Source: Schistocephalus solidus (Eukaryota; Platyhelminthes; Cestoda; Diphyllobothriidea; Diphyllobothriidae). Taken from it: a DNA stretch of 64,000 nucleotides. Shown in pieces: positions 15,701 through 64,000 of the stretch. Location: assembly GCA_017591395.1 (NCBI GenBank), contig WEDG01011821.1, positions 1 through 64,000 of the forward strand, read 5' to 3'. The first letter of the stretch is position 1; each line of letters starts with the position of its first letter. A model generated the notes under the pieces. It saw only the letters and a program-made list of their open reading frames with translations, did not search any database and was not told the DNA's origin. The position numbers were made by a program, and so were the translations under genes.

Positions 15701-17662
15701 TTGCCAAGGCTTTTTTCTTTTATTTTTTGCATCCGAGGAAGGAGTACCACAACCAGTAGACCACGACCACAGTTTCTTTTGGGGATCGAGGCGCCCTGAA
15801 ACTCGATGCACGCTAAGTGAGCTGAGGTTAACGAATTTAGGAGTTACAAAATGTACAAGTTCCAGTTTCGAAATGATGCCAGAACTGCACTTTTTATACT
15901 TGACTGTTTGAAATGGCAAGTTATTGAGTTGAAACGTCAAAATCAAATACAAACATCTATTTTTGTTGTCGACTGAGGCGCGTTTTAGATCCTGGGTACG
16001 TGTACTGTGAACTTCGATGTACCATTTTTGCCTGGGACATGAAATCTTTCGAAACAGCTGCACACCTTTGGTTCAATCGATTAGTCGGATCCGTGTTGCG
16101 GTTACCCACCCATTGTGACGATACCCAAGAAGCAAAACGTGTATTTCACACCAAGCCAGTCACTCCTTAGGGATGTCTGTTTTTGACCGACTTTCCACAG
16201 AGGCGGTCGAACAAAACCGTGCATCTTCTTTAGGTATTAGCAGCATGCCTAAAGCCATGTGGTTAATCCTTCATAGGTCGCGCCGTGTCGAAGGCGCATA
16301 CTCTTACGCACAACCGAAAAACACGAAATCATACTCGGTGACCTACCTGTATGTGTAGGTGGTGTTGCGGTCAAAGGCAGGGCAGACTAAACTGGCCATT
16401 TTACTTTCTCTGTTGTAGTTGACCAGCTATATCAAAACCCATGCTAGAAGGAATCGAAGCAAAACATAAACACCCGTTGCCATCCTCACTAGGTTGTGAA
16501 TACCATGCCTTGAAACATTGACCTGCAGACACCTTCGGAAGTTTTAATATGCCTCTAGAATTCTCGGAACCCACACTCCTATTGGACTGATATTGTCATA
16601 TGAACGATCTTCCGTTGTAGTCTTCGGATATCATAACTGTCGCAGATAGCGAGGATAAACGTCCCATTCGTCTAACTCTTCTCCTTGCGGTTATAAGTGA
16701 CAAGGCATGACTAAGGATATAGATGATGCTAGGCGTTTTGGGGCTTTGCGCGCTTTTACAAACACCTGTGCGCGTCAGTCCCACCAACTGAGGAAATACA
16801 GTTGGAAGCAATTTTTCGCTACATCTGTGCGTGCCACCATGAGATTGGCAAGCACCAGCACTTGAGCGTTTTACATACTCCCTAAAAGTAATATTTGACC
16901 TTGAGTCATGGGCACTTAGGTCTAAAATCATAAGGACCTGGTTGCGTGGCCCTTTGGAAGCCTTACAAGCCATGCCATTTGCCTAACGTAGCTGTTGTTA
17001 GGCCTACGCCTGCAGTATGTCTTGAAAACCCCGATTTTAAAATTAACCTACAATTCGCATTAATTCACAGAACTGACCGCTCCTTTTATTGTCAAAGGAA
17101 GAGTTCTCCACCGGGTACAGGTTTCTGCAACTTACTCTGTTCTTTTTTGGATACGCAGGTGGAAGTTGGATGGGTCTAGTTAGGTGCATGAACATCTGTA
17201 TTAGTGCGAACACCGTCATTCCACGCTGTGTACCAGAACATGTACAGGGGCCGTGTGGTTATACATCACTCACAGAGTATCGAACACACTAACCCAAAAC
17301 ACCCGACCTATGATGAATCACCGCGATTGTCATAGAATTGTCTTAAATAACTTCCGCAACCTCCGTCTACAGTCCATCACCTTTTATGTCCCCTCCCCTC
17401 AGAATTTCTTTTCATTTGGCTTATTGGCGTCTGATAAGAGGCATTTTACATAGATCCAAAAACACCTTAATTGCAGGTGTGAAACTTATTTAGGCTTATT
17501 TGCCCGACTGTCTTACGCCTATGTATGTTGTACTTCTGACCGACAGGATTGTCACAGCTTTTGGACTCTGTCATGATGACCATATTTTTTACTCACTAAA
17601 TCTTTTCCTACAAGAAATTGTACCAGCGTTCTCTTATGCTGCTTGCTTTTTACTTCTTATAG
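12761..17662. other. No gene recognised (4.9 kb)
   Basis: Several open frames of 80-131 codons occur on both strands (for example 15668-16063 and 16596-16973 minus, 14001-14243 plus). None shows a domain, a biased composition typical of coding, or consistent splice boundaries. The missing N-terminal exons of the TEX9-like gene should lie somewhere here or further left, but I could not identify them. Confidence 0.45.
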
Positions 17663-22489: not shown

Positions 22490-22912
22490 GAAACCAGCCT
22501 TGTTCGAATTTTTATGCCACCAGTCAACCGTCTTTCCTGTCCATCCACGTCGTTTTCCGCCTCCTCCTTTCTGCTTGTTGCTTCTTTTTCCTTTTTGCTG
22601 CATTTATTTCCCCTTCGTGTGGTTTCCGCGCGTGCTCGGAATCAACCTTTTAACCTTAATCTTCACGTTGCACTTATCCGTACTCCTAGGAACAATAATA
22701 TAAGAACTTTTAAAAGCAAAATGGTTGCATTCTGTTTGCCTGCCTCCTGTTTCTGGACCTTTGCTCACTTCTGACCTTGAGATACTTACCTGACTGCCGT
22801 CTTAAGTCCCTTCTCTTAGGTCAATCTTATCACTTCTCAGGATCCTATCTAACTTTCAGCGTGACCCTGACTAATTCCTACGTAGGTGCTCTGGAGTATT
22901 CATTAACGAACG

Positions 22913-23110
22913 TTCACTGATCGCCAACGGAAGTCAATCATTCCGCTCTTCCTTGAGGCTCACTCGCGAGCCCCACCAGCAACCGCACAGCGGCCAGTAT
23001 CATAGGCAGATTATGCTTGCTGGCAAAGACAAGGGAGACTGGAATGGTCATTTCTGGTTCACTAGCTGTCACCAGCCAGCCATACCCACCAAACCTCGGG
23101 TGGTAATGAA
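22913..23110 (-). mobile_element. SINE body fragment (tRNA-derived family)
   Basis: Matches the body of the family arrayed at 61171-64000, in the same minus orientation. The landmarks occur in order: gttcactgatcgccaacgga, gaggctcactcgcgagcccc, accagcaaccgcacagcggc, gacaagggagactggaatgg, and the ctggtt/cagccagcc block. The tRNA-like head that should follow on the right is absent or unrecognisable. Repeat membership is clear from landmark order. The edges are approximate. Confidence 0.72.
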
Positions 23111-23639
23111 ACGCATGACGGCCAAAAATCATTGCATGTCGTATTTTAAGGAAGAGAAAGCGATGTCACCGGCAAACTGGAACTAAATAAGCCTAAAATT
23201 GGCGGTATCTTGGTACCCTTAAAACCCTTAAGTGACATATCGATAATAAAACTTGGAAGAGGGCATAATCTTATCAGTATTCAGAGTCAGTCTCGAGCCG
23301 CAGCACCGAATTTTTTTGTACCAGGTCTTCGCCGTAGGCTTCCGGGTTGCGATAGAATGTGATTCTATGAAGCTGCGTTCAGTTTAGTGACCGCGCACCG
23401 GTAAGTATCTCTGATCGGCGCCCTAAATAAGACGAGGGCCTCTGGGGTTCGTAGTTCCCGCATGATAATCCAGGAGTCACGCAATCCTGCTAAGGTCGTT
23501 CTCTCATTAAATTTGGTGCACCTGATTCTCTCACAATCCTCGAAAATGCCCAGCTCGGAGGACTGCTAGCAGACGAAATCATTTTTCTTCCATCGAAAAA
23601 GTCTGGCTTCTGTGGCCACTTACTGTGAAAGTTACGCCG
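23111..23639. other. No gene recognised; upstream flank of RTE element
   Basis: No coding signal or assigned repeat. The endonuclease domain expected ahead of the reverse transcriptase at 23640 is not readable here, so the element is 5'-truncated or its front is too decayed to see. Confidence 0.4.
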
Positions 23640-27695: not shown

Positions 27696-29148
27696 TTTTT
27701 ATCAATCATTATGCGCTCGAAATCACAGTCGTAATTTTTAACCGGAGCCGGCTAGGGTAAGGCTTCGGGGTCACTAAAACTTCTTCCTTTGCCTGTCGTT
27801 TCGCGCACTGCCCCTGCTTTTTGCGTCTTCCTCTAGTAGTTATGTTGGTATCTTGATTGACGTCCTCAGTGAAAGATCCGGCCCCCGGAACTGTGGTCGT
27901 TCCGTAAATGGTGGTCGCTTGATCACATGAACCCCATTTCATCCTGTACTGACTTTAATTAGGGTATATTTAACTCACGGGTAAATGCGGAGTGCACGCT
28001 TTTTTCACTAGTTTAACCGAAGAGCAGTCCCCTTACCGGCTGCACCTCGGGTGAGAAATGGGGAGGTGGTGTCCAGTGCCCAATGGGTACCATCTGACAA
28101 CGGCGGCTTTCACCAATCTGGCCTGATTGCAGGACCCAAAGAGGTTCTTCGTTTTGCCTCTGAGCTGTGGTCCAAAACCCTAACAGGTAATCGCCATAAC
28201 GAAGAACATTAACTAACCTTGATGCATTTGCAAAAAGGGCGACTGGTATGGATATTTGGACCTGCAGTGGACTGAGTGGTCGGTTGGCAGCCAGGCTTCT
28301 TACGTCTTCCCCGACGTGCGTATAACCATTGCGATTGACAGTGAATCATTCTAACCCGATACCAATGCCGTTGCTCAGTTAGACTCGAAACCAAGGTTTC
28401 GGACTCTACTGCAAATCGCTGTGGGTTGTCTTTGTCAGTAACGTAGTTCTGTCTATATCGCTAGACGCTACGCAGCTGCTTGAGAGGCTCGAGAGTTAGC
28501 GCCAGGGCACTACGGGACGAGTGACTTCTGTAACCGGTCGGTAAACGCCGATCTACCATTGCTAACCTTTATTTGTCTGCCTATTTTCAATCGTACGCCA
28601 CTAGTTGGTCCGGATTAAACCAACAGCAGAGTAGATGAATTACAGTGGATAACGTGGCGAGAATTCCGTCTGCACTCGTAGTGATTTTTACAACCATGAA
28701 CCAGATGTCAACTCAGATCTCGCACTGGTGAGAGCTATTATAAAGGCTACACCAACGAGGCCTCATTGCAGTTTGAGGCTCAGTCCGAGGAAGGACCCAG
28801 GTATCCCGTTAGTCATGAGATTTCAAAAATCTACGGTAGCAAAAATAAAGGCCCAATACAATTCCCTACTTATACGGTTGCTGAATACGGAGCATAGCCA
28901 TACCTCCATATCCCCGGTGCTTTTGTAAACTCAATTGCAACCGGTCTCCTTGATCCATATAACTCTCAACCTCCTCCGTAGCCTTTCCGGTCAGCGCTTC
29001 CATCGTAATTTACAAATGATAAATTAGAAACTCCAAACCGAAACTGGTGTTTAACTTACCATCTCACCCCTCCAAATGCGCTCAATGACTATTTATCAGC
29101 GTGTTTTTTCTTCACTATTTACTACCCTGTCAATTCACTTGCTCCAGT
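27696..29148. other. No gene recognised upstream of TP53RK
   Basis: No coding signal or assigned repeat is seen. The last few hundred bases should hold the promoter and 5' UTR of the kinase gene, but I see no clear TATA box, and trans-splicing cannot be judged from sequence alone. Confidence 0.4.
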
Positions 29149-32100
29149 ATGGATAATTCGTCTGGCGACGCTGAGGTGGTGTCGGCATTTGACGCGAGTG
29201 TCCCACCGCCTCACCCTCCCGGTGAGCTGATTCGTCAAGGTGCCGAGGCGCGTATATACTCAGCCCAACTCCTCACCACGCTGCCAAAACCCTGCATTGT
29301 AAAGGAACGCTTTGTTAAGACCTACAGACACGAGACCCTCGACGCCCTCCTCTCCCTCAAACGGATGCGCGCAGAAGCCCGCCAATTGCTTAAGTGTCGG
29401 CAATTGGGCCTGCCCGTGCCGGCCATTTACCACGTAGACATGGCTCGAAGGCAGCTCTGGATGGAGGATGTTGGACCCAATGCCGTCCCTCTCGGTGCCT
29501 GGCTGTCTTGCCTCCTGCAGGACGATGATCTTGACCGGGGGGAGAAGGCTGAGAAGCTCGATCTAATGGCACACCGTCTGGGCGATCTGCTGGCCAAGAT
29601 GCATGCCAGTAATGTGATCCATGGAGACTTGACCACTGCCAACATCCTTGTCCAGATGGTGAGTCTGCGGCGATTATGCTCGCTCACATTAAGGTGAATG
29701 CTTGTATTTTTGGCCCATTTTTTATAGCGATTGTATATACAAAAACCTAAATTTGCCTGTCTTAATCAGCGTATAGAGCGATTCATGAATTGATCAAGTA
29801 GGTGGTATTAATTGATCACCCAGTGGCTCGAAAGTGAGTTTCCTTTTGCATACAGGCCTGGTATTCGCAGATATTTCTAAGTCTTTATTATCTATAGCGA
29901 AAGCCATTTTCTATAGATGCATAATGTCACTTTAACACTGCCGATAAAGACAATGGAGACTAGCATGGTGATTTCGGGCTCATTAGCCGTAACCAGCCTG
30001 TCATAACCACCACCAGGTGGTGTTAATCTGCCTCTACTATTACTAGCCACCGTGCGGCTGCTAACGGGGCTCGAGAATGAGACGAAAGACAGAGCGGGAC
30101 GAGTGAGTTCCGTTAATGCTCGGTGAGTGCTCATCAACAAATGTCCATAATGTCATTGTTAGGGGCGGGGATCCAAGTGCAACTCTATAACATGGAAGCT
30201 TCCGGTGTAAAATGCTAAATCCGCTCTACACAAGTACGATGTAAAAGGAATGCCATAGTACTCTCTTAACTACTCAGTTTGTTTAGAATCGCGTAAAATT
30301 TAAGAAAGGGGTGACTTACATGACTACGTCGACTTTACTTACCTCTTCTCAAGCAGTCTCTCCTCATCCCTAGCTCAGAAATATTAAATGGTATTTGAAA
30401 CGGTTGTGGTTGTGCTTTTATATACGACCTCGATGATATCACGAATTGTCTCTTCACACGTGGCGATCTGCATAGGCGAATCCGGAAACCTTGACTAAAT
30501 CTCTCCTCGCACGGACGCCGAAACGCGTAGCCAGAACACCTCATTTATCTTTCATAAATAGCCGGAGAGGTCCTCACAGTCTTGTCGCAACAAGCGTGAA
30601 CTCTCAGTCAACAAGAAGTTTGTATACTTTAGGCGAGTGTTGATTCTCCGGCCCGGAACACCTGAGATCTGCACCTAGAAATTGTCTCAGTCACGTCTGA
30701 CAACTTTAGTTCGTGGCTTGCCTGGCAGAGCATTGTTCACTGGGACCCACGCTTTATTTCCAGGCCTCTCTAGCCAGCGGTTAGCTTTTGTCTGACTGGC
30801 ATGTGAAAATAAGCTGGAATCGGCTTTTTCTGTCCTCTTTGTCTTAGTGGGTAATGTTTCTCGACTAATGAGCGTTTGTCTCGCAAGACTGATTTTTGTA
30901 TCTGCTTTTTGGTAAGGCATTTCTCACAAGGCGAGACACGGGAATAGGAGCTCCCGGGGATTTCAGGTGAGCTTGCATTTAATTCCAGGAAGTGTTCTTA
31001 TTCTCTTGTTCTAGACCGAATCCCAAGATCAGGCCTTACTAAATCCTTAAACCTAATCCTAACCGTAATCTTACTGGGATGTAGCACGGCCACCTGTAGT
31101 GCGAAGTTCCTATTCTCGTGTCTTATAAGTCAAACTTCTTTTAGAACTCATAAAAAAGCAATCTTTTCGGTCAATTACCAGTGGCCAGTTTTATTTGTCC
31201 CGTTTGATATACAACTCGTTTCGGCGCTAAAAACTTTGTAAGATTCACCTTTCTCTTTTCTACAAGTTTCTATTCGGCAACCTGTATGCCATTTGGTGTA
31301 ATGGGATGATTAAATCGTCCTTTGGTGTCGGCCCTTCGACCCGGAAGAGTAAGTCATGCTTTCATGTTCAAAAATCTTATCGGAGACCACATTCGCGTTT
31401 ATTTATTTATTTCAATGTTCTGCAACAAAACAAGATGTCGACTTTTGTCATTTAAAAAGGATATAAAAAGTTAGTCCTTTCTACGACTTTGAGGAAATTT
31501 GGGGAATCGGACTGGATTTCCTTCGACTCAGACAAGAATCTTCGATCGACTTGCTCATTAAAAAGGGCTAGCTTTGCATTCCCACCCACGGAAAAGTGCT
31601 CAACTTTTAGATGTATTCATTGAAACACTTCCTACTGACAAGTTTGATTTATCCGAATCGAATCGTCCGTCGCACACTATTTAGCTCTTTATCTACTATA
31701 TATTCACTATTAATTCATTATAAGTAGCTCTTTATTTGTGTATTTATAATCATATATCCTTATCTGACCCTTGGGAAACCATGGCGTTAGGTTTTCTAAC
31801 ACAAAGCGCTGGCTGACTTCTCGACAAAAAGTACATCTTATCACCTCCCAATTATTTTTATACGCGCCCGAAGAACGTTTCAGGTAAGAAATACTCTGAC
31901 TACCGCCTCTTTCTCATCGACTTTGGACTCTCCTCCTTCAACCCCGTCACCTCGCGCTTTCGGGAAGAGGTTGCCGTGGACCTCTATGTGCTAGAACGTG
32001 CTCTGGTCAGCTCGTTGGCTCTTCGGGATGAAGAACAAGAGGACGGGATTTTCAGCCCACAACATTTCTTTGCAACATTTCTGGCTGCCTACTCAGAGGC

Positions 32101-32301: not shown

Positions 32302-32870
32302 CATCAGTTCTCTCGAACCCCCAAACTGTAATCTGTAAAATACACATCTAAGCTGCAAATTATGGAGCTTTTTCCACCCGATGCAAGTTTCTAAGGGACA
32401 AAAATAGCGTATGCATATGCATACATTTGAGGCCGAAAAAGTGTGAACTTCAGGACATATATTTTTCATGAATTTTCGGACCGCTTACGGATGCCGTCGT
32501 TGAAAATAACTTTATAAACTAACGTAGGAACGTCATTCGCGGAGTTCTTCATCATCAATTGCCTGCATGTATATGAGTCTTGCCTGGCACGAACCAGAGA
32601 ACAGACATTTTTCCTTCAAGTTCCGAGTGCTCTGTGCTTTCTGAGCGACAGGACCTTGGCGGACATTGATTTAAAAAGTGGTCTGCTGACTCTAAACTAG
32701 TTTGAACTTTTTAGACAAGACCTAATCTGGGACTTTAATTTATATATTTAAGGCCTCGATGACCTTGAACAAAACCGATATCCACCAGGAACTGTAATCA
32801 AAAATCGCTGCCATCGACTAAAAAAAAACGAAAATACTAGCGTCCTGGCTCTTTCATCTCGCGCCCCATT
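32302..32870. other. Downstream flank of TP53RK, no gene
   Basis: Contains the kinase 3' UTR, whose end is not identified; no clear AATAAA lies close to the stop codon. An A-run at 32820-32828 precedes the RTE insertion target. Confidence 0.4.
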
Positions 32871-32883
32871 ATATGTTAACCTT
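32871..32883 (+). repeat. Target-site duplication, left copy
   Basis: ATATGTTAACCTT occurs here and again at 34299-34311, exactly bracketing the RTE-derived insertion. A 13-bp direct repeat flanking a 5'-truncated element is the hallmark of target-primed reverse transcription. Confidence 0.88.
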
Positions 32884-33430
32884 CAGCGATGGGGAATCTC
32901 TCCTAAGCTGTACTCAATGCGACCGCACATTCACCTCACAAATCGGCCTGGTCGGTCACTTGCGAATACATCGTACAGAGACCGGTGAGCCAGTGCCTGA
33001 GCACCAACACACAGCAGAAGGTCGTCGCCTCCACTGCCCTCACTGTCCTCGCGCATTCACTCATCGCATAGGCCTATTCGGTCACATGCGCATCCATAAC
33101 AGCGGAATTAACCACAATGCCGACAACACCGATACACCATGCACACCTCCGCTCCTGCCATTCTTAGTGCCCCTGCCACCCCCACTACCAGCAATGACAT
33201 CCTCCCAGCCTCTACCGATTTCTCCCTGCCCACACTGAACCCGCAACTTCAACTCACGCATCGGCCTGGTCGGTCACCTAAGAATCCATCGCATGGAGGC
33301 TGGTGAACCAGTGCCTGGGGCTCCGACATACAGTCGACGTGCCCGCCTTCACTGCCCTAACTGCTTTCGCACATTTACACACCGCATGGGCCTATTAGGA
33401 CACATGCGCCTCCATGACAACCTCCGGTAA
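32884..33430 (+). pseudogene. RTE element C-terminal zinc-finger ORF, 5'-truncated insertion
   Basis: The insertion starts inside the coding region (SDGESLLSC). Four C2H2-like units are readable. CTQCDRTFTSQIGLVGHLRIH is open from about 32910 and CPHCPRAFTHRIGLFGHMRIH from about 33035. A third finger (CPH) is cut by a TGA near 33237 and continues as RNFNSRIGLVGHLRIH. The fourth, [21 protein letters not shown], ends near 33420. Spacers carry the family phrase GEPVPGAP or a shifted version. Two compensating indels (about 32998 and 33020) and the internal stop make it non-coding. The repeated, nearly identical R-I/M-GL-GH helix in every finger is unusual for ordinary transcription factors. Confidence 0.82.
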
Positions 33431-34311: not shown

Positions 34312-35430
34312 ATTCAATTTGATCGGTTCTCATGGCGAGTGCCTGTTTAGAATCCTGCGTTTACGGAATTGGGGATGTAAATGTCAACTTCTCTGTCAAC
34401 GTAAACTATCACTAGAAACTAGAGCACTGCTCTTGGGGAGTCCCTTTAACAAATTCTCAGTAAACAGACTTTCACTAGCCAGTTTCGGCACAGCACAGCA
34501 GCATGCTAGGGGAAAATAGAGCGACTTACCTCCGACTATTGGGAAGATGACCTCAAGTCCAGAAGTTGGGACCCCGATAGCCGAGGCCCTGCCTGCCTGG
34601 GATTTCAGAAAAAGAAGGGGCGGTATGAATGCTGGTTTACTCGTGCTGAGCGCAGAAGGCGAGGTTAAGTCAAGATCGGTAACCTGTCAGAACATTTTGC
34701 ATATGTAGTGTCGTACGTCTGGGTCAGTAATTATGTTTCTGAGTACGGCTATAGTGCGCTGAAATGGTGGGAAACTGGTGTTTGGTGTTACCGTTGGGGA
34801 CTATGTGCATCCCCGTCTAGACTTAGCTAACATGCATTTGGAATTGCGAATCTATCGTACCGGGTGTTAGGTTTTTGTCATTGGTTGTGGATGGTTGCAA
34901 CTGTGATGATCCCAGTCCATCCGCTGGTTGACACAATCTGCCAACGGCAATGAAATATTGCCAGATGGAGAAGCCAGAAGTAAACCTTCGCAATCTTACA
35001 ACGCGGAGTCCTTAGGAGAGTCGAATAACTTGTCATAGTAGGGCAGATCAGCTTCTGACTGACGATTTCGGTTTGAATTTATCCTCGCCTTTGTGTACAG
35101 CTTGTAACTATGAGCGTGTTAATGCGGTTTCACCTTTTCGCTCCTAGTATCTTAGACGAAAAGTCACAGTGCTGCTTGTTCGCAGTAGTGACAATGCCAG
35201 CTTGCCTGCAAGGCTTCTCCGGTAGCTACAACTTTTTAAACGATCGGTTTATATTTGCTTACAAGGAGGTGATGATGAGAGTAAAATAACAGAAAGGAAG
35301 AATGGTATAGAATGCAAGAGAGGCAGTATGTGACTTGTCAATTACGCCAGGATAGAGTGCTTCAGGAAGTAATCATTATTCAGCTGCACATTTTAGTCAA
35401 AAATGTGTATTATAGTCAGAGACATTACCG
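34312..35430. other. No gene recognised (1.1 kb)
   Basis: No open frame with a recognisable motif and no assigned repeat. Confidence 0.45.
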
Positions 35431-35580
35431 TCAAAGATAAGGGGAGACTGGGATGGCAATTTTTGGCTCATTAGCCGTCATCGGCCAGCTATACGTAACC
35501 CCAAGTGGTGCCCTACATGCGGCGCGGACGCGCGACCTTTTGATCGGGGATCAAACGTTCTAACCATTGAGCCACGCGTT
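35431..35580 (-). mobile_element. SINE, tRNA-like head plus start of body
   Basis: In the minus direction, the A box TGGCTCAATGG lies at 35564-35574 in the context gcgtggctcaatggttagaacg. It is followed by a degenerate anticodon arm and B-box region, then the body GGCCGATGACGGCTAATGAGCC and cccagtctccccttatcttt. It faces the plus-strand SINE at 35607 head to head, 30 bp apart. The right end of the head is a little uncertain. Confidence 0.75.
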
Positions 35581-35606
35581 TGGGTTGGGAATATTGAAAT
35601 TCGTTG

Positions 35607-35880
35607 ACGGGCTCGTGGCACAATGTTTAGAGAGTTGGACTTCTGATCAATAGGTCTCGGGTTCGAGTCTCGGTTGGTGTCCCTCCTGGGTTTGAGTATG
35701 ACTGGCTGATGACTAATTAGCTAGAAATGACCATTTCAGTCTCCATTATCTTTGTCGACATTATAAATCTGCCTTGTGCGGCACTATGCGACTCGAGAGT
35801 GAACCCCAAGGCAGAATGAGACGAGGGAGTTCCGTTAGCGCTCGGTGAGCGTTCGTCAGCGAATATCTGTTTTTCTGTTG
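35607..35880 (+). mobile_element. SINE, near full-length, tRNA-derived
   Basis: The best-preserved dispersed copy. The head starts near gggctcgtggcacaatg. The A box TGGCACAATG is at 35616-35625, the anticodon arm ttggacttctgatcaa at 35635-35650 (loop CTTCTGA, anticodon TCT), and the B box GGTTCGAGTCT at 35660-35670. A 44-base A-to-B spacing fits an internal RNA polymerase III promoter. The body contains ggctgatgactaattagcta, gaaatgaccatttcagtctcc, a decayed gctg/ctcgag block and gttccgttagcgctcggtgagcg near the end. The resemblance to tRNA-Arg(UCU) is by eye. SINEs depend on LINE proteins for movement; which LINE served here is unknown. Confidence 0.78.
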
Positions 35881-36850
35881 TGCCCCAGTCGGTTTCTCAT
35901 ACTAGTCAGCATGCTTCTTCCAATAGCTGGAAAATCTTCTCCGGTATTGCTATTTTGATGGAAAAAATGTGGGATATTATTGCCAAAATGTTCAACTTAA
36001 CCTCTACGGCTAAAAATGGAACTTCTCCAATAGCTAACTCTGCTTATGTCTTGTCTATGTAGGAGCTATGTTCAGATCCCGATAGGACCGTAGCCCACGT
36101 CACCGCCTAAGGAAAGAGACAGCAGGGCAGCTTTGGAATAGCTACTAGTTCCCCGGATAAAGGAAATCCGTGGAACCGGGGTTGGTTGAAGTTTAAGATT
36201 GCTTCTACCAGTAGCAACGATAGTAGTTGTATAGAAATAGTTATTGCAACAGCAGCCTCAAACTATGCTCTGCTGCTCGGAATTCGATCTCCCGATGCCG
36301 CTGCTGCGTGTTTTGACTTTACTTGCTCGGGACAAACACACCTGAGACTATGGAGTTGCACAAACAGGAGAACCCTGAACGTCTTAGTCCATGCCACTCC
36401 CCTTTTTGTCGCTACCGCTGCTCCTCTTACGCGTGTGAGCGCACGTCGCTGAATTAATTCATTCCACCGGCATGACACGTGGTGTCTAGGTCGTGTGACT
36501 GCGGCAATGTCGTTCGGGTCATCGTCGCGTGTCGGCACACGCAACAACGCGGTCACGGTCCGTGGCCGCGCGCCGGACCCGGCAGTCACCCCCTTCCCTC
36601 TCTCCCGAGACGAGTCATAATGTGTGCGGAGGATGCGTTAGTACGTTCAGCTCAGCACCTCATCTGAGCACAAACGCACACATGCTTAGTGCTTCAGCCA
36701 GTACCACGCATGCATACGCTCACCCAGCATCCTGTTTGGAGTCCACGTATGGAGAGGTAACATTCCGGGCTGTATGTATAATATCAACAGTACATTTATA
36801 CATCTGTACCATCTCACTTTTGGGAGGCCTGACCCTATAACATTGCCCTT
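35881..36850. other. No gene recognised; CpG-rich patch at about 36420-36620
   Basis: Open frames on both strands at 36186-36667 share a GC- and CpG-rich stretch but show no domain. It could be an unrecognised repeat or a promoter-like patch. No splice-consistent exon was found. Confidence 0.35.
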
Positions 36851-37110
36851 TCTAGCGGCTGCTCAAGGCAGAACGGGATGAGTGAGTTCCGTTAACGATC
36901 GGTGTGCGTTCATCAAGAAATGCCCATATTCCCGACCTAAACCGACAAGACAACGAGCCCATGGCTCAGTGGTTAGTGCCTTGGACATCTGATCAACAGG
37001 TCGCGGATTCGAGCGTCGGGTTGCGTACCACCTGGAGTTAGGCATGACTGTTTGATGACGGCTAATGGCCATTCCAGCCCCCCTTGTCTTTGTCGGCATT
37101 GTTATTCTAA
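36851..37110 (+). mobile_element. SINE tail followed by SINE head (partial tandem dimer)
   Basis: The tail (tctagcggctgctcaaggcag, gagtgagttccgttaacgatcggtg, 36854-36905) comes first. A new head follows with A box TGGCTCAGTGG at 36962-36972, arm ttggacatctgatcaacagg, and B box GGATTCGAGCG at 37005-37015. The body is gactgtttgatgacggctaatggcc and ccccttgtctttgtcggcat. Tail-then-head order is that of two tandem units, the same arrangement as the array at the right end of the window. Confidence 0.78.
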
Positions 37111-37465
37111 TTCCCCTTTCTGCCCGACGAGTTGAAGGAGCCTGTGATGCAGGAGGAGACGCTGCGTTGGTCGCTTTTTGCACTTACCGAAAGACCAAGA
37201 CTTATATCTTTGCATCCAATAGTAAGTGAATTATTTGAGATCGTCTGAATGATGTAGTGTCCGCAAGGCATTTTTATTACGATGACCACGACATCATCGA
37301 TTATTTGCACAATTGCAGGCACCTTCGATTGACCAAGAAGTAGAACATCCTACGCAAGTCCGCAAGCGCGTTAGGTTACTGAGATAGGGTATTCGCACTT
37401 TTAAACTTGTTCACAATATATTTCACTAGGCAATCCGGTGAGGATGACTTGTATGGACGCATAAT

Positions 37466-37802
37466 CAGGACACGGTAATAGGAACGCCCCACCCGCTTAA
37501 CATCGGTGACATTTCGAGAAATGTTGGGAAGGGTAAAAATTCCCTAGGTTAAACCCTAACGCTAACTCTAATATAAAACTGTAACCTTAATGTTAAACCT
37601 ATCCCTACCACGAACATAAACCCTTACAGTAAATACGAACGCAAACATTCACCCTTAACCTAATACTGACCCTTACCCAAACCTCGACCTAAAACCTAAC
37701 CCTAAACTTCGTCCTAACCGTCAACCTAATCCTAAACCTAAGTTCCCCGCCATTGGGCTCAAAGCCACATGCATTACAGGCGTTTCCTGTTCCCTTGTCC
37801 TG
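37466..37802. mobile_element. 337-bp TIR element with degenerate telomere-like core
   Basis: Terminal inverted repeats caggacacggtaataggaac (left) and caggacaagggaacaggaaa (right end, reverse complement). The core from about 37550 to 37740 is a degenerate CCTAAC/CCCTAA-like repeat (aaccctaacgctaac, cctaaaacctaaccctaaac). There is no open frame of note. The same architecture occurs at 30934-31123 and, in the opposite orientation, at 42464-42755. No target duplication was recognised. Confidence 0.65.
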
Positions 37803-41170: not shown

Positions 41171-41804
41171 AAGGTAATGCGGATGATATGAGATATGAAT
41201 TCATATCACTGAAGGGATAAATAGGCTAGTTTTTTGCTCAAACCCCGACTCTTCTGCTACCTCCTCCAGTGTTCTCATCCTGAAAGAAGATTTCAATTAA
41301 GATCCTGGATAGAGGTCAAGTGGCTGCTTTCTCTTTAGTCCTTGTGAGCTATGGCTTTGCCCTGCCACTACTCTTCCGCATTCCTATGGGCGAACCAAAG
41401 CGTGAAAACCCCGAATGCTTCTCTGGACAGAGGTAGAGAATGAGATGCAGATTTACAAGGTATTACTAAAATTTTGACTGAGTATAAACAATACAATTCG
41501 AAATTTCAGAACTGAACTGCAAACTTCCAGATGTTCACATGAATCTGCTTTCATAATTAAAGACAACAATGAGAGCATAAATATTGCTTCATATTAAATC
41601 GCATGAGAGTGACTCTCAGCGGTGGCCAAACGCATGACGCACTTCAGTTGTTTCCTGCGTCTTTTGTTGTGGATTCCTCGTAGACGGTGGCGTAGCGAGC
41701 AGTGGCGTTACAGACAGTGCAACAGATATGGGAAGAGCCCTGTCGGGCGAGGTTCAAACGTTTGATCAAATGAGCCAAAAGAGCTTGACCCTAAACCTTA
41801 GATA

Positions 41805-41865
41805 TACCATGCCTGGGGTTGGAATATGACTGTTTGATGATGGCTAATAAGTGCGCACCAGATAT
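41805..41865 (+). mobile_element. Short SINE body fragment
   Basis: The segment atgcctggggttggaatatg followed by actgtttgatgatggctaat matches the start of the SINE body at 37040-37070. The sequence before it (ggttcaaacgtttgatcaaatgagcc) may be a badly decayed head. Very short, so only moderately certain. Confidence 0.5.
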
Positions 41866-42463
41866 TCCGACTTCGCCTAGTCTTCCTTGATAACACCCAG
41901 CGACCATGGGTCTTCAGTACACAACCAACCGTCAGGGGGCTAAATCAGCGAGCCCGGGACGAAATGAAACCGGCCTACTCCGCAAAGCAGAATAAACCTG
42001 TGAGCGCCACACTCACGTGGCCCAAATTATTTGTGAATGGCCCATAGGAAGTAAGGTCGCGGTTCAGTTTTACAATGTTTAATCCATTGAGCGAACAGGC
42101 TCAGGTCATCTCGACCAGAATTTTGCAAATGGAGAGTTGACGACAAAACTAAGCTGGAAATACCCCAGCCTAACTTATATAACCGTAAACCAGTGGACAA
42201 AAAGGACTTTTCGTTAGAGTTTGGGCTTCATACGTCATTAAAATCAATGAAAGTGTGTAAAAGAAAGGCATTTCTAGTATAATAATGCTAAATAAATACT
42301 ATATCTTATGCAATTCACTACGAAACTCTTACAATTCCCCAAGAAAACTGTCTTGCTTTTAAATGCTTAGACTCGTAGTCAATTCTTTTTACAGTAAGCA
42401 TAAGTATAGTCCATCAAGTGTTAAAGAAAAACTTGCAAAAAATGAATCATATGGTCCCTTAAG

Positions 42464-47264: not shown

Positions 47265-47345
47265 TTTTATTGGTGGCTAATGGTGGTTAATAAGCCAGAA
47301 ATGGGCATTCCAGCCTCCCTTGCCTTTGTTGGTAATGTTAATTAG
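47265..47345 (+). mobile_element. SINE body fragment
   Basis: ggtggctaatggtggttaat, then aagccagaaatgggcattcc, then agcctcccttgcctttgttg, then gtaatgtt: the central SINE body in plus orientation. A decayed head may precede it from about 47180, where gttcaaatctaagg could be a worn B box. Confidence 0.65.
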
Positions 47346-49702
47346 TCGTTCATACTACCTCGGTATTCAGCTGTTCCTACAATTATAGAAGCCAAGCTAA
47401 ATCAGACACAGAAAGGTAACTTCTTTGAGTTCTTCGTCGCAATTTACTCACCCCAACGGAGTTCATGTCAAGCCGTGAGCTGACTGAAACGTTGAATCTC
47501 CATAAAAGTTTGGTCTGTAGGTTTATCGAACTGCCATCGGCATACGTGGTTATGCGTAGACACGTCCATAATTAAAACACTGCAGGATGTTGCTTCTCCC
47601 CGTGAACACGAGAGGGACCAGATTTCGAGGGAAGTAGGAGAATGGCCAACCAACCATTGTCTTATTCTATGGTCCATAGAGGCTGTGCGTATTATGCTTG
47701 CCAACGTCGGCCCTGGCGTCCTTCATACATATCCATCCTCGTTGAATAGTTTCAAGAGATGTTTGCCCCACCCTGAATTCTTGAATTCGCTGTCCTAAAA
47801 TGTTTCTGGTCAGTTACAGTAACTGCGCATGAATTTGACTTTTCGGTTGCTTAACAAATATAAAAACGCGTCATTTCAGCAAAAAAGGGATAAGAATGGA
47901 CGCTCTACTCACCTGTGCCAAAAGATTTAAAACAATGCCAAGAAATTGGGCTCTTTATTTGCTGACTTGGAAATATCAAATTTAAATTTTTTGCTGGTAT
48001 CCGATATGCCTGCATACCAAGAGTACAGTTAGTGGCCGATCACAGGAAACATAAATCTAAATTTTGAATTGCGCTTTAGGTTATGGAGAGTGATTTCATT
48101 GGGATTGTAATGTCGATAATTGTGTAGCGAAAGCCCATAATACTTTGGATGAATCAGGCTACTGAATTTCAAATTCACTTAGGTTTGGGCGCCTGCAAAA
48201 GCAGCACTTTGTAAAAAGTGATAACTTACGTAGTACGCATGTTTCGAATTTACTTTAGAGGTCCTTCAAAATTAAATTATGTTTCATCGAAAACTTCAGC
48301 AACAAAATTCTTTTAGTCTGGTAGCGAATTCCGTCTTCCTCCAATTTTGTAGACAGAAGACAGTTATATTTAGGATTTAAAATTTTTTCCAATTACTGAA
48401 TATTTTTGTGTCCAATTTGCCGTTGCTTCTGAAATTAAGGTTTTCAGTCTGTAAGCTATAGACCTTTCGTGCATGAAATAGCAAACATTACTCTCTGCTG
48501 TTGAAACGATACCATACAGTACTCATAAAAATTTGCAATGGATGTATACTATGTTGCATCTTTCCTAAGGTTCATTAATAAACGGAAAGCTGCAGTTCTG
48601 TTTTGATTTTCATTGTTCGGTCTTAAAAATCTCATAGGTGGACATGTTTTTAAAACCGAAAGGTAGGTCTTTTCACGTATCAACTTTGAAGAAAACGTGA
48701 TGATCTATCAAATGGGTTCAAAAAAGAATATATTCGCTTTTGTTTTCTATAAAATATATTCGAATTTACAGGAGCATCTAAAATCAATCGAAAAAATCTA
48801 AACTAAAAAAAATTGGTTTTTAGAGGGTTCTATTTTTGCAAGCGGCTGAAAAGACGTGCTTTCAGAAGTCGAAAACCTGCTATGCGTGAACTATCGTTTA
48901 AACGATCCTTCTTGATCTAAAATTCATTTTGGACTTTCGGTTAACCTTTCCTGAGATCGGTCAGTGTCTTTAGAAACAAATTTGATTTCTGGACGATATT
49001 AGACAAAGTTAAGGGTACCGGGAAGAACGGTTGGCTGTTTAACCTACCTTCTGTCAACACCGGCTGTCCAACGAGAGACGAATATTGGAGCGGCCTTTGA
49101 CGAAGGCAAGCTGCGAAATATGCGGACTTTGACCTCTGGCAGATAAGCAATCGTCGAACAACAGTGACTGTTTCTAGGGCGTGGTGAGCTGAGGTCTGCT
49201 TCACTGTCTACCCTTTACAATACCACAAAACCTTATGACAGCCGTGTGACATAATAGGGTGCCAGCAAGCTGGCTCACTGACAAGTATTGCTTTGTGATT
49301 AGGTTCCCAATAATCGAGCGCTACTGGAGACAAAGTCTGTATTGAAATGTTTTCAGGCACGAAACAAATGAACGGGCCGGCTATTTCTGCTCATGATACA
49401 GGCATACAAAATAACATATAACGATGCCCAGCCATGATAGAGTATGGTTGGCTTATGGGAAATCCAAACCCCGGATAAATTTATCTGCTACACGTACTTA
49501 AAGTGCATTCCCTGGGAACACGCAACTTAAGTCTTGCTTATTTGGGAGGTATTGTGTGGCGGCTCTGCATGCATGCGACAGAAAGGACGCTTTGCTTGCA
49601 TCTTTAGTTTTTTTTATCGCCCTATTTGCATGAGTTATCACTCCTCGTTGTAAAGCATGCTTTATTGGGGAGAGTAAATAAGCGTATTATGAAGCCAATT
49701 TT
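47346..49702. other. No gene recognised (2.4 kb)
   Basis: AT-rich DNA with short open frames only. Confidence 0.45.
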
Positions 49703-59110: not shown

Positions 59111-59400
59111 AGTGAAGTACTTTCTCGTTTGGCTGAGATATTAAACCCGCTCAAGATTGCTAACGGAACTCACTCGTTCTGCTCTGATTTGAGGCTCAAT
59201 CTCGAGCCCCGCCAGCAGCCGAGCAGCTTCTAGGAGGAGAAGATGCAGAGACAAGGGAAAATTGAATGGCTATTTCTGGCTAATTATACGTCTTCAGCCA
59301 GTCACACGGGAAAACGTGTTATGAAAAACCAAAGGAACGAACCTATGAACCAATGATCAGAAGTCCAACGCTCTAAACAGTGCGCCACTTTCTTGTTTTC
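59111..59400 (-). mobile_element. SINE unit, tandem copy 1 left of the RTE insert
   Basis: Minus-strand unit of the array family: head complement near 59350-59395 (caatgatcagaagtccaacg, ctctaaacagtgcgccactt; A box read as GTGGCGCACTGTTTAGAG). The body carries cagccagtcacac and ggctaattatacgtcttcag, and the tail region reads gaggctcaatctcgagcccc and gctaacggaactcactcgtt. The left edge is unclear. The head is closer to the dispersed SINEs than those in the main array. Confidence 0.78.
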
Positions 59401-59737
59401 CTGCCTGGTAAGATAGAACATGTTGACTCTCTTTGGTTAATGATCGCTCAACTTTTAGACCAACTCTCAAAACCCTGTCAGCAGCCGCACAGCTGGTAGG
59501 AGGAGTAGTGGCGAAGCGAAAAGGCCGGCAAAGACAAGGGAGAATGGAATGTCGATTTCCGTCTAATTATTCATCGTCAGCCAGTCACACCAGAAGCCGT
59601 GTGATGAAAAACCAAAGGAAAAAACCAAGATCCATTGATCAGAAGTCCAACGCTCTAACAATTACGACATGTCGTAGATCTCTTGTTGGTTAAGCTAGGG
59701 AGTGTTGACATGCATTGCTTGAAGAACATTCACCGTT
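59401..59737 (-). mobile_element. SINE unit, tandem copy 2 left of the RTE insert
   Basis: Follows copy 1 directly with the array junction phrase (cttgttttcctgcctggtaa and later tctcttgttggttaagctag). The head complement is at about 59635-59672, again with atcagaagtccaacgctcta. It ends at gttcaccgtt, where RTE sequence begins. Confidence 0.78.
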
Positions 59738-60545
59738 CCAGGTGGTGCAGGGACGGTGACTTGCGCGTGAATTAGTTTGAAGTGATAGTAGCCTTGCGCT
59801 GCAGCTACTGCACCCTCTCCTCCTCCCCCACCTGAGCCTGGTGTCAAGACAGAGTCAAGAAGACCGGAAATGGGAGGGGGCGCAGGTGGCTGGCACGGCC
59901 GGAGCCGCCCCTGGGCGAACCACCACACCTGGCTCGGAGCCCACGGAGTGGGAGTGCCATAAAGGTCACATTAAGAAGGGACCATTGCAGCCTGACTCTC
60001 AGTCCGCCAGTTAGTCACTCCACACAAGAACACACATTGGGTTGACCACGTGGTCCAAGTTATCCCGCCAGTTGGCAACCTTCCAAGCCACGGCTTTTAG
60101 CGCACCGTGATAGTTTCAAGCGCATCAGATTTTTTATAGTGAGGAATGTACGCTGAGCTGTCGACCTCACTCTCTACCCCACCCCCGCAATCAGACCACC
60201 ATCCGAGCCAGTCGATTGTCTGAGGTGGGAGTGGGCGCATTGGCTGACGGGTCGGCGTACCCGTCTTCGCGCGCCACAGTTTGACCTGCCCCCCATTACG
60301 CACACACCAGGATTCACTAAAGCGTGGGATATGGAGGAGTCATCGCCGTCTGACTCCCAGTCCACTGGTCAGCCACTCGACACACACAGCACATACACTA
60401 AGCCGACGGCGTGTTCTGGTGTTAGCGTCAGATTGGCAGTCTTCCAAGTCACGGTTTCTAGAAAACCGTGATTTTATCAAGTGCATTATGATGATTGTGA
60501 GGGTTTTGACTATGTATTAGTGAAGATGGTGTGCGCTGATGTGGC
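59738..60545 (-). mobile_element. RTE 3' UTR, copy embedded in the SINE array
   Basis: Reverse orientation of the 33431-34298 sequence, at good similarity: ccaggtggtgcagggacggtgac at the left, gcgcaggtggctggcacggc near 59880, ttaagaagggaccattgcag near 59970, and the hairpin at 60450-60470 with its degenerate partner near 60090-60112. The last ~60 bases of the 3' end (after the CACCTGG block) are missing, so this copy is truncated at its 3' side too, unlike a standard insertion. Confidence 0.82.
60450..60470 (-). other. Hairpin in RTE 3' UTR
   Basis: Perfect 8-base stem CACGGTTT/AAACCGTG with loop ctaga. The stem is identical to that at 33518-33538, although the loop bases differ in order. 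Confidence 0.7.
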
Positions 60546-61155
60546 TTAGCCTCCGTTGGTGTACCGCAGGTTGGCGTGGAGGCGTATGTGTTCTAATAGG
60601 CCCATGCGGTGTGTAAATGTGTGGGAGCAGTGAGAGCAGTGGAGGTGGGCGCGGCGACTGTATGTCGGAGCACCAGGCACTGGTTCACCAGCCTCCGTGC
60701 GATGGATTCGCAGGTGACCGACCGGGTCAATGCGTGAGTTGAAGTTGCGGGTGTATTGTGGGCAGCAGAAATCGGTAGAGGCTGGGGGGATGTCATTCAG
60801 GGTATTGGGGGTGGCAGTGGCGGTATGAATGGCAGGAGTGGAGGATTTGACTGATGCATCGGTGTTGTCGGCATTAGGGTGAATTCCGCTGTCATGGATT
60901 TGCATGTGACCGAATAGGCCCATTCGATGAGTGAATGCGCGAAGACAGTGAGGACAGTGGAGACGACGATCTCTGCTGTGTGTTGGTGCTCCAGGATCTG
61001 GTTCACCAGTCTCAATACGATGGATTCGCAAGTGACCGACTAGGCCGATGCGTAAGGTGAATGTGCGGTCGCATTGAGGACAGTTTAGGTGAGAGTTCGC
61101 ATCGCTGATGGTGGTGGTGGTGTTAGTGAAGGCGATGAGTAGAGGGATGTAGTCG
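60546..61155 (-). pseudogene. RTE zinc-finger ORF C-terminus, intact frame but partial
   Basis: Open on the minus strand for 210 codons (60546-61178) and the best-preserved view of this domain. Four C2H2-type units: CPQCDRTFTLRIGLVGHLRIH; CPHCLRAFTHRMGLFGHMQIH; a third reading CPQYTRNFNSRIDPVGHLRIH, whose second Cys is replaced by Tyr; and [21 protein letters not shown]. They are paired 1-2 and 3-4 by a GEPxPGAPTxSR spacer, suggesting an ancestral two-finger module duplicated once. The reverse transcriptase that should precede it is absent, so the open frame is probably not expressed as a host gene. The apparent N-terminus (about 61140-61178) may be flanking SINE-array sequence read through. 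Confidence 0.78.
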
Positions 61156-61170
61156 ATAACCATTGTGACA

Positions 61171-64000
61171 CGCCGCATATGTCTTGCCTGTTAAGATAGG
61201 GAATGTGGACTTGCATTGCTTGACGAAACTTCAACGATCGCTAACGGACGTAACTCGTTTCGCTCTGATTTTATGCTCAATCTCGAGCCCCGGCAGCAGT
61301 TGAGCAGCTGCCAGGGGAGAAAAAGCAGTGGGATAAGACCAATATAGACAACGGAGAATGGAAAGTCTATTTCCGGCTAATTTTTCATCGTCAGCCAGTC
61401 ACACTGGAACCCGTGTGGTGTAGCCAGAATTCCAACGCTATAACCACTGCGACACGCCGTAGATTTCTTGCCAGTTTGAAATGGAATTTTGACTTGCATT
61501 GCTATAAGACCATTCACAGTACGCTTACGGAAGTATCTCGTTTCGCTCTGATTTGAGGCTCAATCTCGAACCCCGCCAGCAGCTGAGCAGCTGCTAGGAG
61601 GAGACGTAGGAGAGTGAAAAGGCGAAATAAGACAAGAGAAAATCGAATGTCTATTTCCGTTTCTAATTTTTAATCGTCAGCCAGTCACACCGGATTCCGC
61701 GTGATGCAACATTCAAGGAACGAAACCAAGACCCGGTTATCATAATTCCAACACTATAACCACTGCGAAACGCCGTAGATTTCTGGCCCGTTTAGATAGG
61801 GAATGTGGACTTGTATTGCTTGACGAAAGTTCACCGATCGCTAACGGAAGTAACTCGTTTTGCTCTGATTTAAGGCTCAATCTCTAGCCCCGCCAGCAGC
61901 CTAGCAGCTCCTAGGAGGAGACGTAGCAGTGGAATAAGGCCAATTAAGACAAGGGAGAATGGACTGTCTATTTCTTCTTCGATTTTTTCGTCGTCAGCCA
62001 ATCACAATGGAACCCATGTGATGCAACACTCACGATACGAAATCATGACCCGTTTATCGGATTTCCTACGCTATAACCATTGCATCACGTCGTAGATTTC
62101 TTGCCGGTTAAAATAGGGAATTTTCACTTGCATTACTTAAATAATGTTCACCGTTTGCTAACGGAAATCACTCGTTCCGCTTTGATTTGAGGCTCAATCA
62201 TGAGTCCTGCAAGAAGCTGAAAAGCTGCTAGAAGGAGAATTAGCAGAGGGATAAGGCCAAATAAGACAAAGGAGAATGGAAAATCTATTTGCGGCTTATT
62301 TTTCATCGTCAGCCAGTCACACTGGAACCTGTGTGGTGCAACACTCAAGGAACGAGACCACGACCCGTTTATCAGAATTACAATGCGACACGCCGTACTT
62401 TTCTTGCCGGGTAAGATAGGGAATTTGGACTTGCATTGCTTGACGAAAGTTCACCGATCGCTAACGGAAGTAACTCGTTTCGCTCTGATTTAAGGCTCAA
62501 TCTCTAGCCCCGCCAGCAGCCTAGCAGCTCCTAGGATGAGACGTAGCAGTGAAATAAGGCCAATTAAGACAAGGGAGAATGGACTGTCTATTTCCTCTTC
62601 TATTTTTTGTCGTCAGCCAATCACAATGGAACCCGTGTGATGCAACACTCACGATACGAAATCATGACTCGTTTATCGGATTTCCTACGCTATAACCATT
62701 GCATCACGTCGTAGATTTCTTGCCGGTTAAAATAGGGAATTTTCACTTGCATTACTTTTATAATGTTCACCGTTTGCTAACGGAGTCAATCGTTTCGCTT
62801 TAATTTGTGACTCCATCTCTAGCCCCGCCACAGTTGAGCAGTTGCTAGGAGGAGAATTAGCAGAGGGATAAGGCCAAATAAGACAAAGGAGAATGGAATA
62901 ACTATTTGCGGCTTATTTTTGATCCTCAGCCAGTCACACTGGAACCCGTGTAGCGCAACCCTTAAGGAACGAAACGACGACCCATTTTATAGAATTCCGA
63001 CGCTATCACCACAGCGACACGCCGTAGATTTCTTGCCGGGTAAAATAGGGAAATTTGACTCGCATTGCTTGATGATCGTTCACAGTTCGCTAACGGAAAA
63101 CACTCGTTTCGCTTTTATTTGAGGCTCAATTTTGAGGCCTGCCAGCAATTGAGCAGCAGCTAGGAGAAGAAGTAGCAGAGGGATAAGGCCAATTAAGATA
63201 AGGGAGTATGGAATGTCTATTTCCGGCTAATTTTCATCGTCAGCCATTCACACTGAAACCCGAGTGGTGCAGCAATCAAGGAACGTAACCACGACCAGTT
63301 TATAGAATTCCAACGCTATAACCACTGTGACACGCCGTAGATTGCTTGCCGGGTAAGATAGGGAATTTTGACTTGCATTGTTTGAATATTGTTCACCATT
63401 CGCTAACGGAATTTACTCGTTTCGCTTTGATTTGAGGCTCAATCTCGAGGACTGCCAGCAGCTGAGCAGCTACTGGGACCAGACGTAGCAGTGGGATGAG
63501 GCTAAATAAGACAAGCGAGAATGGAATGTCTATTTCCGTTTCTAATTTTTCATCTTCAGCCAGTCACACTGGAACCCGAATGTTGCAACACTCCTGATAC
63601 GAAACCATGACCCATTTATAGGAATTCCAACGCTATAACCATTGCAACACGCCATAGATTTCTTGCCGGTAAAAATAGGGAATTTTGACTTTCATTGCTT
63701 GAAGACCGCTCACAGTACGCTTACGGAAGTAACTCGTTTCGCTCTGATTTGAGGCTCAATTTCGAGCCCCACCAGCAGCTGAGCGGCTGCTAGGCGAAGA
63801 AGTAGCAGTAAGATATGGTCAAATATGACATAGGAGAATATAATGTCTATTTCCTTTTCTAATTTTCTACCTTCAGCAAGTCACACTTGAACCTGAGTGA
63901 TGCAACACTCAAGGAACGAAACCATGACCAGTTTACCAGAATTCCAACGCTATAGCCATTGCAACATGCCGTAGATTTCTTGCCGGTTAAGAAAGGGAAT
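61171..64000 (-). repeat. Tandem SINE-derived satellite array, about 9 units, runs off the window
   Basis: The junction phrase cgccgtagatttcttgcc recurs at 61171, 61455, 61771, 62089, 62391, 62707, 63020, 63333, 63650 and 63966, giving a first period of 284 and then 302-318 bases. Each unit, read on the minus strand, has a worn tRNA-like head (GTCGCAGTGGTTATAGCGTTGGAATTCTGAT then a TTTCGTTCC B-box relic). The body carries gtgactggctgacgatg and a cccttgtcttatttggcc stretch. The tail carries agcagctgctcagctgctgg, cggggctcgagattgagcct and cttccgttagcgatcggtg. Units differ by scattered changes. The B box is degraded in all of them, so transcription by Pol III is unlikely. The array continues past 64000. 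Confidence 0.88.

Follow-up and report, generated by a model that had tools for sequence, protein, structure and literature searches.

Does the tandem array that closes this stretch of the Schistocephalus solidus genome descend from a dispersed tRNA-derived element that was amplified in place, or was it born as a multimer? The stretch analysed here, the window, comprises positions 1 to 64,000 of a contig we call C7155, in an assembly of 603.7 Mb and 8,019 contigs. An earlier note on this DNA had described a tandem array beginning at 61171. TRF (61425-64000, period 317, 8.2 copies, 78% matches) and an alignment of nine whole units (61175-63970; lengths 284-317 bp; pairwise identity 69-94%, or 6-31% difference) bear out the array itself, while BLAST and profile matching place its left edge at approximately 61154. 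The array also continues past the window, in head-to-tail units of ~316 bp, as far as the contig end at 68521, where it is still running after a total of 24 units. Its units run head-first on the minus strand, the tRNA-like head coming first and a linker of ~36 bp last, and the segment 61154..64000 is its left (3') part, holding about 9 units. Landmarks had been claimed for every unit; homology does extend along most of the unit, but the heads are damaged in two of them (61175-61458 and 62092-62394). Within a three-unit stretch at 61775..62710 (minus strand) the outer units, 61775-62091 and 62395-62710, are 94.3% identical, a sign of local duplication. Profile matches reveal two more head-to-tail units on the minus strand left of the array, at 59143..59738, with other repeats in between. 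An ORF further left (55834-57780) corresponds to a Schistocephalus solidus protein with 100% identity over 649 aa, the next best being from Sparganum proliferum at 78%.

Searching the 64-kb window with an array-derived profile recovers dispersed copies along most of the unit, with matches at 35614-35859 (model 3-271, E 6e-29), 36862-37115 (E 1e-27, spanning the tail/head junction), 22896-23104 (E 2e-26) and also 59149-59738. Homology covers most of the unit, as opposed to chance identity outside a short segment. Shared ancestry of the array and the dispersed copies is therefore confirmed, and one family does occur both scattered and head-to-tail, as had been proposed. A second profile, made from the dispersed copies plus one array consensus row, recovers extra, weaker copies in the window and yields no match at E<=2 on the reversed window. 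The plus-strand copy at 35610..35866 has A and B parts and stops at one of two recurrent 3' ends (L, the other being S; both are defined below). It forms a head-to-head pair with a minus-strand copy at 35421..35612 that consists of linker, head and A part; the tRNA-like head of the latter lies at 35514..35581 (minus strand), and the hammerhead-like core block of the former, CTGATGA..GAAA, at 35697..35744 (plus strand). At 36836..37120 (plus strand) a 5'-truncated copy shows B part, linker, tRNA-like head and A part, with its core partly deleted. Both profiles detect a minus-strand copy at 22894..23114 that has lost its head and carries the L end, a plus-strand 3' part with the L end at 28427..28567, and a plus-strand core part with the S end at 47267..47358. 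The second profile adds a head-to-head (5'-inverted) copy at 29928..30150 and two weak, old core fragments at 41779..41889 (plus strand, E 2.4e-5) and 16367..16447 (minus strand, E 1.9e-5). The segment 29928-30022 was at one point considered an S-type 3' end and was dropped, as it is half of the inverted copy.

Beyond the window, the pattern of the conserved core (<=2 mismatches allowed) occurs at 19,939 and 19,676 places, at least 39,615 in the genome, and the same pattern read backwards as a control occurs at 0 and 0. Among 100 exact core matches listed, 42 have a neighbouring core on the same strand 300-309 bp away. A first genome search, in which 40 of 744 candidates were scored, gave at least 63 matches; of the 20 regions taken from it, one extends the window array, two are other arrays (C3844, C3224) and 17 are dispersed loci, referred to here as older. 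Another 20 regions, referred to as young, were picked by the core pattern, and hold 78 full units at 16 loci with a mean identity of 92% to their consensus and 86% between arrays. A scan of viral contigs for the pattern gave 0 matches, and searching proteins with a rough translation of the consensus, written by hand, gave no candidates.

The unit of ~300-317 bp consists of a tRNA-derived head, a conserved core of ~70 bp, a variable body and a linker. A left and a right A copy can be paired in 10 of the 17 older loci, in the order head-A-B-linker-head-A and often with 5' truncation. The tail-linker-head order at 36851-37110 and 59111-59737, previously taken to mark intermediate stages, is thus the ordinary anatomy of dispersed copies. 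The left and right A consensus sequences differ at one site over 150 bp (11 elements, some incomplete), so that a dimeric SINE with distinct left and right halves was dropped as an explanation; their equality suggests that the two A copies were renewed from one template. A test for private variants in A pairs of the same element (9 elements, one of two paralogous loci being left out) found 8 shared against 6.0 expected by shuffling (p 0.22), which is not significant. Chained copies in the young regions range from 0.2 to about 14 units, some of them reaching contig ends. Across 38 sources (the 17 older loci, the 20 young regions and the window) we counted 72 copies, of which 34 are about one unit or less, 17 about 1.5 units and 21 longer, i.e. 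38 of 1.5 units or more. Other arrays hold 11 (L010) and 8 (L011) near-full units.

The head of the family is confirmed to be tRNA-derived, although the profile check proposed earlier gave a divided answer. ARAGORN and Rfam find no tRNA in the array units, and the window head described above, at 35514..35581, falls just short for Rfam RF00005 (28.0 bits, cut-off 29). Elsewhere in the genome RF00005 is reported at E<=10 in all 7 young loci scanned and its cut-off is reached by 5 heads (29.3-37.3 bits) in 3 of the 7; it is reported at E<=10 in 5 of the 17 older loci, every time below the cut-off. By comparison with the A and B box consensus, both boxes are present in the consensus of the young copies (Y), and the B box is one base short in that of the older copies (U).

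Dispersed copies share an insertion signature, most evident at their 3' ends. Two ends recur, S (model positions 145-172) and L (255-275): among 43 chained copies in the young regions, 27 end at S (18) or L (9), and 16 end elsewhere. At 11 loci that played no part in setting these bounds, S or L is the end of 11 of 17 copies, or of 13 if a tolerance of 2 nt is given. A TATATA or ATATAT run lies within 24 bases 3' of 14 of the 27 S- or L-ending copies, as against 0.8% of random 24-mers from the window, and in 4 of 37 5' flanks; at the 11 further loci, (AT)n follows 9 of the 11 S- or L-ending copies. Multi-unit arrays and short copies have these two ends in common. The 5' ends, by contrast with these fixed ends, differ from copy to copy through variable truncation. 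They cluster at unit positions 53-58, where a palindrome partly explains the clustering. Abutting pairs among the 72 copies are head-to-head, with 3' ends outward, in 17 cases and tail-to-tail in 3, one of the latter (L063) being ambiguous; some pairs overlap, by up to 102 bases, within palindromic parts of the unit. The 11 further loci contain 3 head-to-head pairs, all flanked outside by (AT)n on both sides, and no tail-to-tail pair. One of these three pairs (L030) joins 3.2 and 2.5 units. Target duplications of 8-9 bp accompany 3 of 13 copies, as against 2 of 156 cross-locus pairs, which is suggestive. A MIR2619 match at L066 (47.6 bits) was set aside because it appears to be an inverted pair of the tRNA-headed element around (AT)n. 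Truncated 5' ends, head-to-head pairs, AT-rich targets and fixed internal 3' ends are tendencies, and are not found in every copy.

Whether arrays were inserted as multimers or grew in place can be approached through the identity of units as a function of the distance between them. Identity decays with distance in the 24-unit window array (p<0.0005), in L010 (p 0.012) and in L011 (p 0.017), as well as in two of seven young arrays, L060 and L071. The closest likeness being among neighbours is expected of local duplication, and we read the old arrays as multimers that were later reshaped; for the window array a satellite-like second stage, with local homogenisation by later local duplication, is supported. 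The other five young arrays (L059, L062, L063, L065, L069) are flat (p of decay 0.36-1.0), two of them, L062 and L069, having 5 units each and hence little power. Sites fixed for an array-specific base number 12 in L059 (9 units), 3 in L065 (8 units) and 1 in L063 (11 units), and there are none in random sets of at least 7 units or in one-unit-per-locus sets of 8-11. The 2 and 5 fixed sites of L062 and L069 lie within the maxima of random sets of five (7; one-unit-per-locus 5), and L060 and L071 have none. If a single template is copied repeatedly and the units then decay independently, a flat profile and array-wide variants are to be expected, so that several young arrays look as if they had been inserted as ready-made multimers. 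The earlier proposal of a conversion from SINE to satellite through intermediates is accordingly only partly right: the satellite-like second stage is supported, and the monomer-first direction is not confirmed.

The core (unit positions 84-152) is 97% identical between the older and the younger consensus, as against 56-76% for other blocks; within it, in hammerhead letters and numbering, the two sequences differ at position N7 and in one pair of stem I, where an A-to-G change leaves pairing possible. The majority consensus of an alignment of the dispersed window copies alone reads GACTGG-CTGATGA-CGGCTAATGAGCCA-GAAA-TGACCATT^CCAGTC and matches a type I hammerhead descriptor whose random rate is 9 (loose) or 1 (strict) per 123 Mb, rates that are flattering because the motif was already before us when the descriptor was set to allow a one-base stem II offset and a 2-bp stem III. 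The descriptor is matched by 66 of 123 young-locus units, themselves chosen by the core pattern, and by 7 of 32 older copies; most of these matches carry a C.A mismatch at 10.1/11.1. It is matched by no individual window copy, even with one core mismatch allowed, including the core block at 35697..35744; nor by the array consensus or a consensus that includes the 59-kb units, nor by any of the units of C7155 (26, counting the two at 59 kb), L010 (11) or L011 (8). In young units the putative stem III is an 8-base palindrome, ATGGCCAT, present in 47 identical copies among the 66 descriptor-positive units. The palindrome extends from the last A of GAAA to U16.1, and is placed likewise in a different tandem element with a hammerhead, RZ2, where its counterpart is ACACGTGT.

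The core thus reads as a minimal type I hammerhead with a palindromic stem III, broken in the window array, a reading left unproven by the C.A mismatch and by a competing hairpin. That the core is instead this hairpin (CTGGCT..AGCCAG) or an enzyme-binding site, resembling a hammerhead by chance, has in our judgement a little less than an even chance. The hairpin is the best predicted fold (-15.7 kcal/mol, as against -8.4 for the hammerhead pairing), the C10.1.A11.1 mismatch is retained in most descriptor-positive copies, and the Rfam hammerhead models match no unit at E<=10. Such silence is however shared by the RZ2 hammerheads of L059 and L078, likewise unreported at E<=10, and both the rarity of random descriptor matches, tuned as the descriptor was, and the common placement of the palindrome argue against a chance likeness. 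The single Hammerhead_1 match obtained (L066:2275-2348, 21.4 bits, E 0.72) was rejected, as it belongs to RZ2.

An enzyme of the kind that the insertion signature calls to mind is resident in this genome. A GIY-YIG search found 5 loci; at L083/L084 an RVT_1 ORF (44.4 bits, cut-off 29.6) is followed by a GIY-YIG ORF (27.1 bits, cut-off 22.6), a combination that identifies Penelope-type retroelements, and two further loci match the L083/L084 reverse transcriptase. RZ2 may be related to them, as degenerate sequence related to it lies just upstream of the reverse transcriptase in L086. Penelope elements are reported to have tandem genomic copies, to prefer AT-rich DNA, to cut and extend both strands, and to begin reverse transcription at two neighbouring positions within the RNA (PMC11167929), and they are put at ~10% of the genome in Spirometra and Sparganum (PMC8166898). 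The 3' ends, the head-to-head pairs and the targets described above are a close fit to the pattern expected of Penelope-type insertion, by analogy. In a search for a direct sequence link, the 3' motif of the tRNA-headed unit and that of RZ2, the sole element compared (TCTTTGTCGG vs TCTATGTCGG), do not resemble each other significantly (p 0.07 and 0.20).

On balance we consider it somewhat probable that this is a very abundant non-autonomous retroelement family whose head-to-tail multimers are inserted in one event by a Penelope-type enzyme. Transcripts would start in the tRNA-derived Pol III head, and a multimeric or circular RNA would serve as template. At a broken AT-rich target the enzyme would use both strands as primers, begin at one of two sites inside the template and be able to go round it repeatedly, so inserting head-to-tail multimers at once; more tentatively, the core may act as a minimal type I hammerhead that cuts the RNA into units. 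The window array may then be an old multimer, later grown and rearranged by local duplication or unequal exchange, and satellite-like arrays appear to be products of the element's own copying cycle. The fuller version of this account is the more speculative one, and we put it forward with reserve: a Pol III-driven retrozyme, whose putative circular RNA, with a tRNA-derived head and processed by the hammerhead, would be the template for several rounds of continuous copying by a Penelope-type enzyme priming on both strands of an AT microsatellite. Whole arrays, often head-to-head pairs, would be born in single insertions, and tens of thousands of units would have spread in this way.

Several observations temper the multimer-insertion reading, and in part favour a more conventional one. 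In the latter the family would be an ordinary tRNA-derived SINE moved by a LINE, its arrays having grown later in place by unequal crossing-over. The tRNA head and the 34 of 72 copies of one unit or shorter agree with such a SINE, and local duplications together with decay of identity in the window array, L010, L011, L060 and L071 agree with growth in place; the short copies and the decay in L060 and L071 count equally against multimer insertion, as does the little power of L062 and L069. We nevertheless regard the SINE explanation as unlikely: at 1.5 units or more, many dispersed copies are multimers already, and their left and right A parts have an equal consensus; flat profiles are seen in 5 of 7 young arrays, three of them with fixed array-specific sites beyond those of random sets; and multi-unit arrays stop where short copies do, at S or L. 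Penelope-type insertion of multimers has to accommodate in turn the 16 of 43 chained copies that end elsewhere than S or L, the lack of significance in private-variant sharing and in the 3' motif comparison with RZ2, target duplications that are suggestive at most (3/13), and the choice of young loci by the core pattern. An LTR-type TRIM with a Pol III promoter in its LTR, of the Helenus/Ajax or Cassandra kind, would explain the order A-B-linker-A and the shared consensus of its two A parts, A being the LTR, B and linker the inside, and the arrays chains of LTR-inside-LTR; tandem arrays are reported for such elements (PMC10886601, PMC7215508). This explanation is very improbable, as precise terminal repeats at both ends were not found in the copies, the 5' ends being variable and the 3' ends two alternatives inside the unit; head-to-head inversions are common, and nearly half of the copies (34/72) are one unit or shorter.

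In kind the family belongs with retrozyme-like or SMalpha-like elements; what is new is genomic evidence that some arrays were inserted as tandems. The earlier view that conversion of a SINE into satellite DNA is rarely documented in flatworms overlooked SMalpha of schistosomes, SINE-like and satellite-forming with a type I hammerhead, which was reportedly described in 1998 (PMC8490949, PMC6155905). Like SMalpha, or W36.2 of Schistosoma mansoni, the present family is a SINE-like and satellite-like flatworm repeat with a unit of ~300 bp (335 bp in W36.2_W001); unlike it, its core is only hammerhead-like, with a minimal palindromic stem III, and the two are likened by description only. Metazoan retrozymes are outlined as 150-450-bp tandem repeats with circular RNAs, from dimers to 62-mers in one coral (PMC7229834, PMC7761336), and our non-autonomous units of ~300-317 bp, in dimers to large multimers, fall within that range. 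Retrozymes are however said in those papers to produce circRNA and apparently to lack promoters, whereas this family has a tRNA-derived head. Resemblance to Penelope-like elements extends to tandem or partial-tandem copies, AT-rich targets, two internal start sites of reverse transcription and extension of both strands (PMC11167929); the tRNA-headed unit differs in lacking an ORF, and shares no significant 3' sequence with RZ2, the one element compared. Hy/Pol III of Hydromantes and Satellite 1 of Xenopus are likewise tRNA-related tandem repeats, SINE-derived satellites for which the passages we draw on (PMC9659126) do not mention multimer insertion, unlike the reading here. Helenus/Ajax TRIMp3 has a tRNA-like promoter in its terminal repeat and tandem arrays of one family (PMC10886601), but such TRIMs carry LTRs, PBS and PPT, whereas the present family has variable 5' ends, and 3' ends located within the unit. 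No description of the present family was found among the titles and abstract openings listed in searches of the open-access literature, which is weak evidence of absence.

How satellite arrays originate is an old question, and many accounts require slow growth from a monomer. This genome contains several arrays, each between a few and eleven units long, that look ready-made and share recurrent 3' ends and AT targets; it also contains old arrays that have since evolved as classical satellites do. Should the tens of thousands of other core matches follow the pattern, array birth could be studied in bulk. A family that would unite a promoter of tRNA origin, a core resembling a hammerhead and insertion of the Penelope type may open rolling-circle reverse transcription of a small RNA to tests in a laboratory tapeworm of fish and birds.

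A second tandem element, RZ2, is distinct from the tRNA-headed array family. Its sequence can be read as a type I hammerhead of canonical form, in which stem III is an 8-base palindrome. In regions fetched from the assembly it occurs on the forward strand at L065:223(+), L066:2277(+), L077:1340(+) and L088:557(+) and as a stretch at L086:6197-7499(+). Reverse-strand copies lie at 594 and 948 in L059 and at 170 in L078, these last positions being counted from the reverse-complement end. An AT microsatellite, (AT)n, adjoins the ends of several copies. RZ2 appears to be an S. solidus retrozyme. A reverse transcriptase of the Penelope type, accompanied by GIY-YIG, is found in L083/L084 (C1673, about 283 kb), L086 and L088. 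Immediately upstream of the L086 reverse transcriptase (3024-3816) there is a degenerate stretch that resembles a hammerhead (2787).

Among young copies of the array family, several 5' ends were seen by eye at unit positions 53-58, which correspond to the T-arm of the tRNA-like head, close to the A58-equivalent base. These ends possibly mark a reverse-transcription stop, but the palindrome that spans 57-85 is in part a confounder of this reading.

Within the window, C2H2 zinc-finger ORFs of one repeated type, identified by eye, directly adjoin the array (60546-61190(-)) and recur elsewhere (25318-25731(+), 32822-33238(+)); they are apparently parts of retroelements. A 367-bp tandem repeat is present in 2.6 copies at 26317-27273, and by eye 59737-60480, beside the two array-family units at 59143-59738(-), looks like a copy of that repeat family. 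Degenerate telomere-like CCTAAACC repeats occupy 37671-37741, and ~550 bp separate them from the dispersed array-family copy that spans 36836-37120(+).

Two other arrays of the family, in L010 (contig C3844) and L011 (C3224), have near-identical units (up to 98%) and a common internal deletion at unit positions 155-230, a likeness that may reflect either allelic contigs or a transposed array. Because contigs break inside such arrays, at the ends of C7155 (the contig containing the window), C7 and C53 and at the starts of C58 and C30, any estimate of how much of the genome the family makes up is probably too low.
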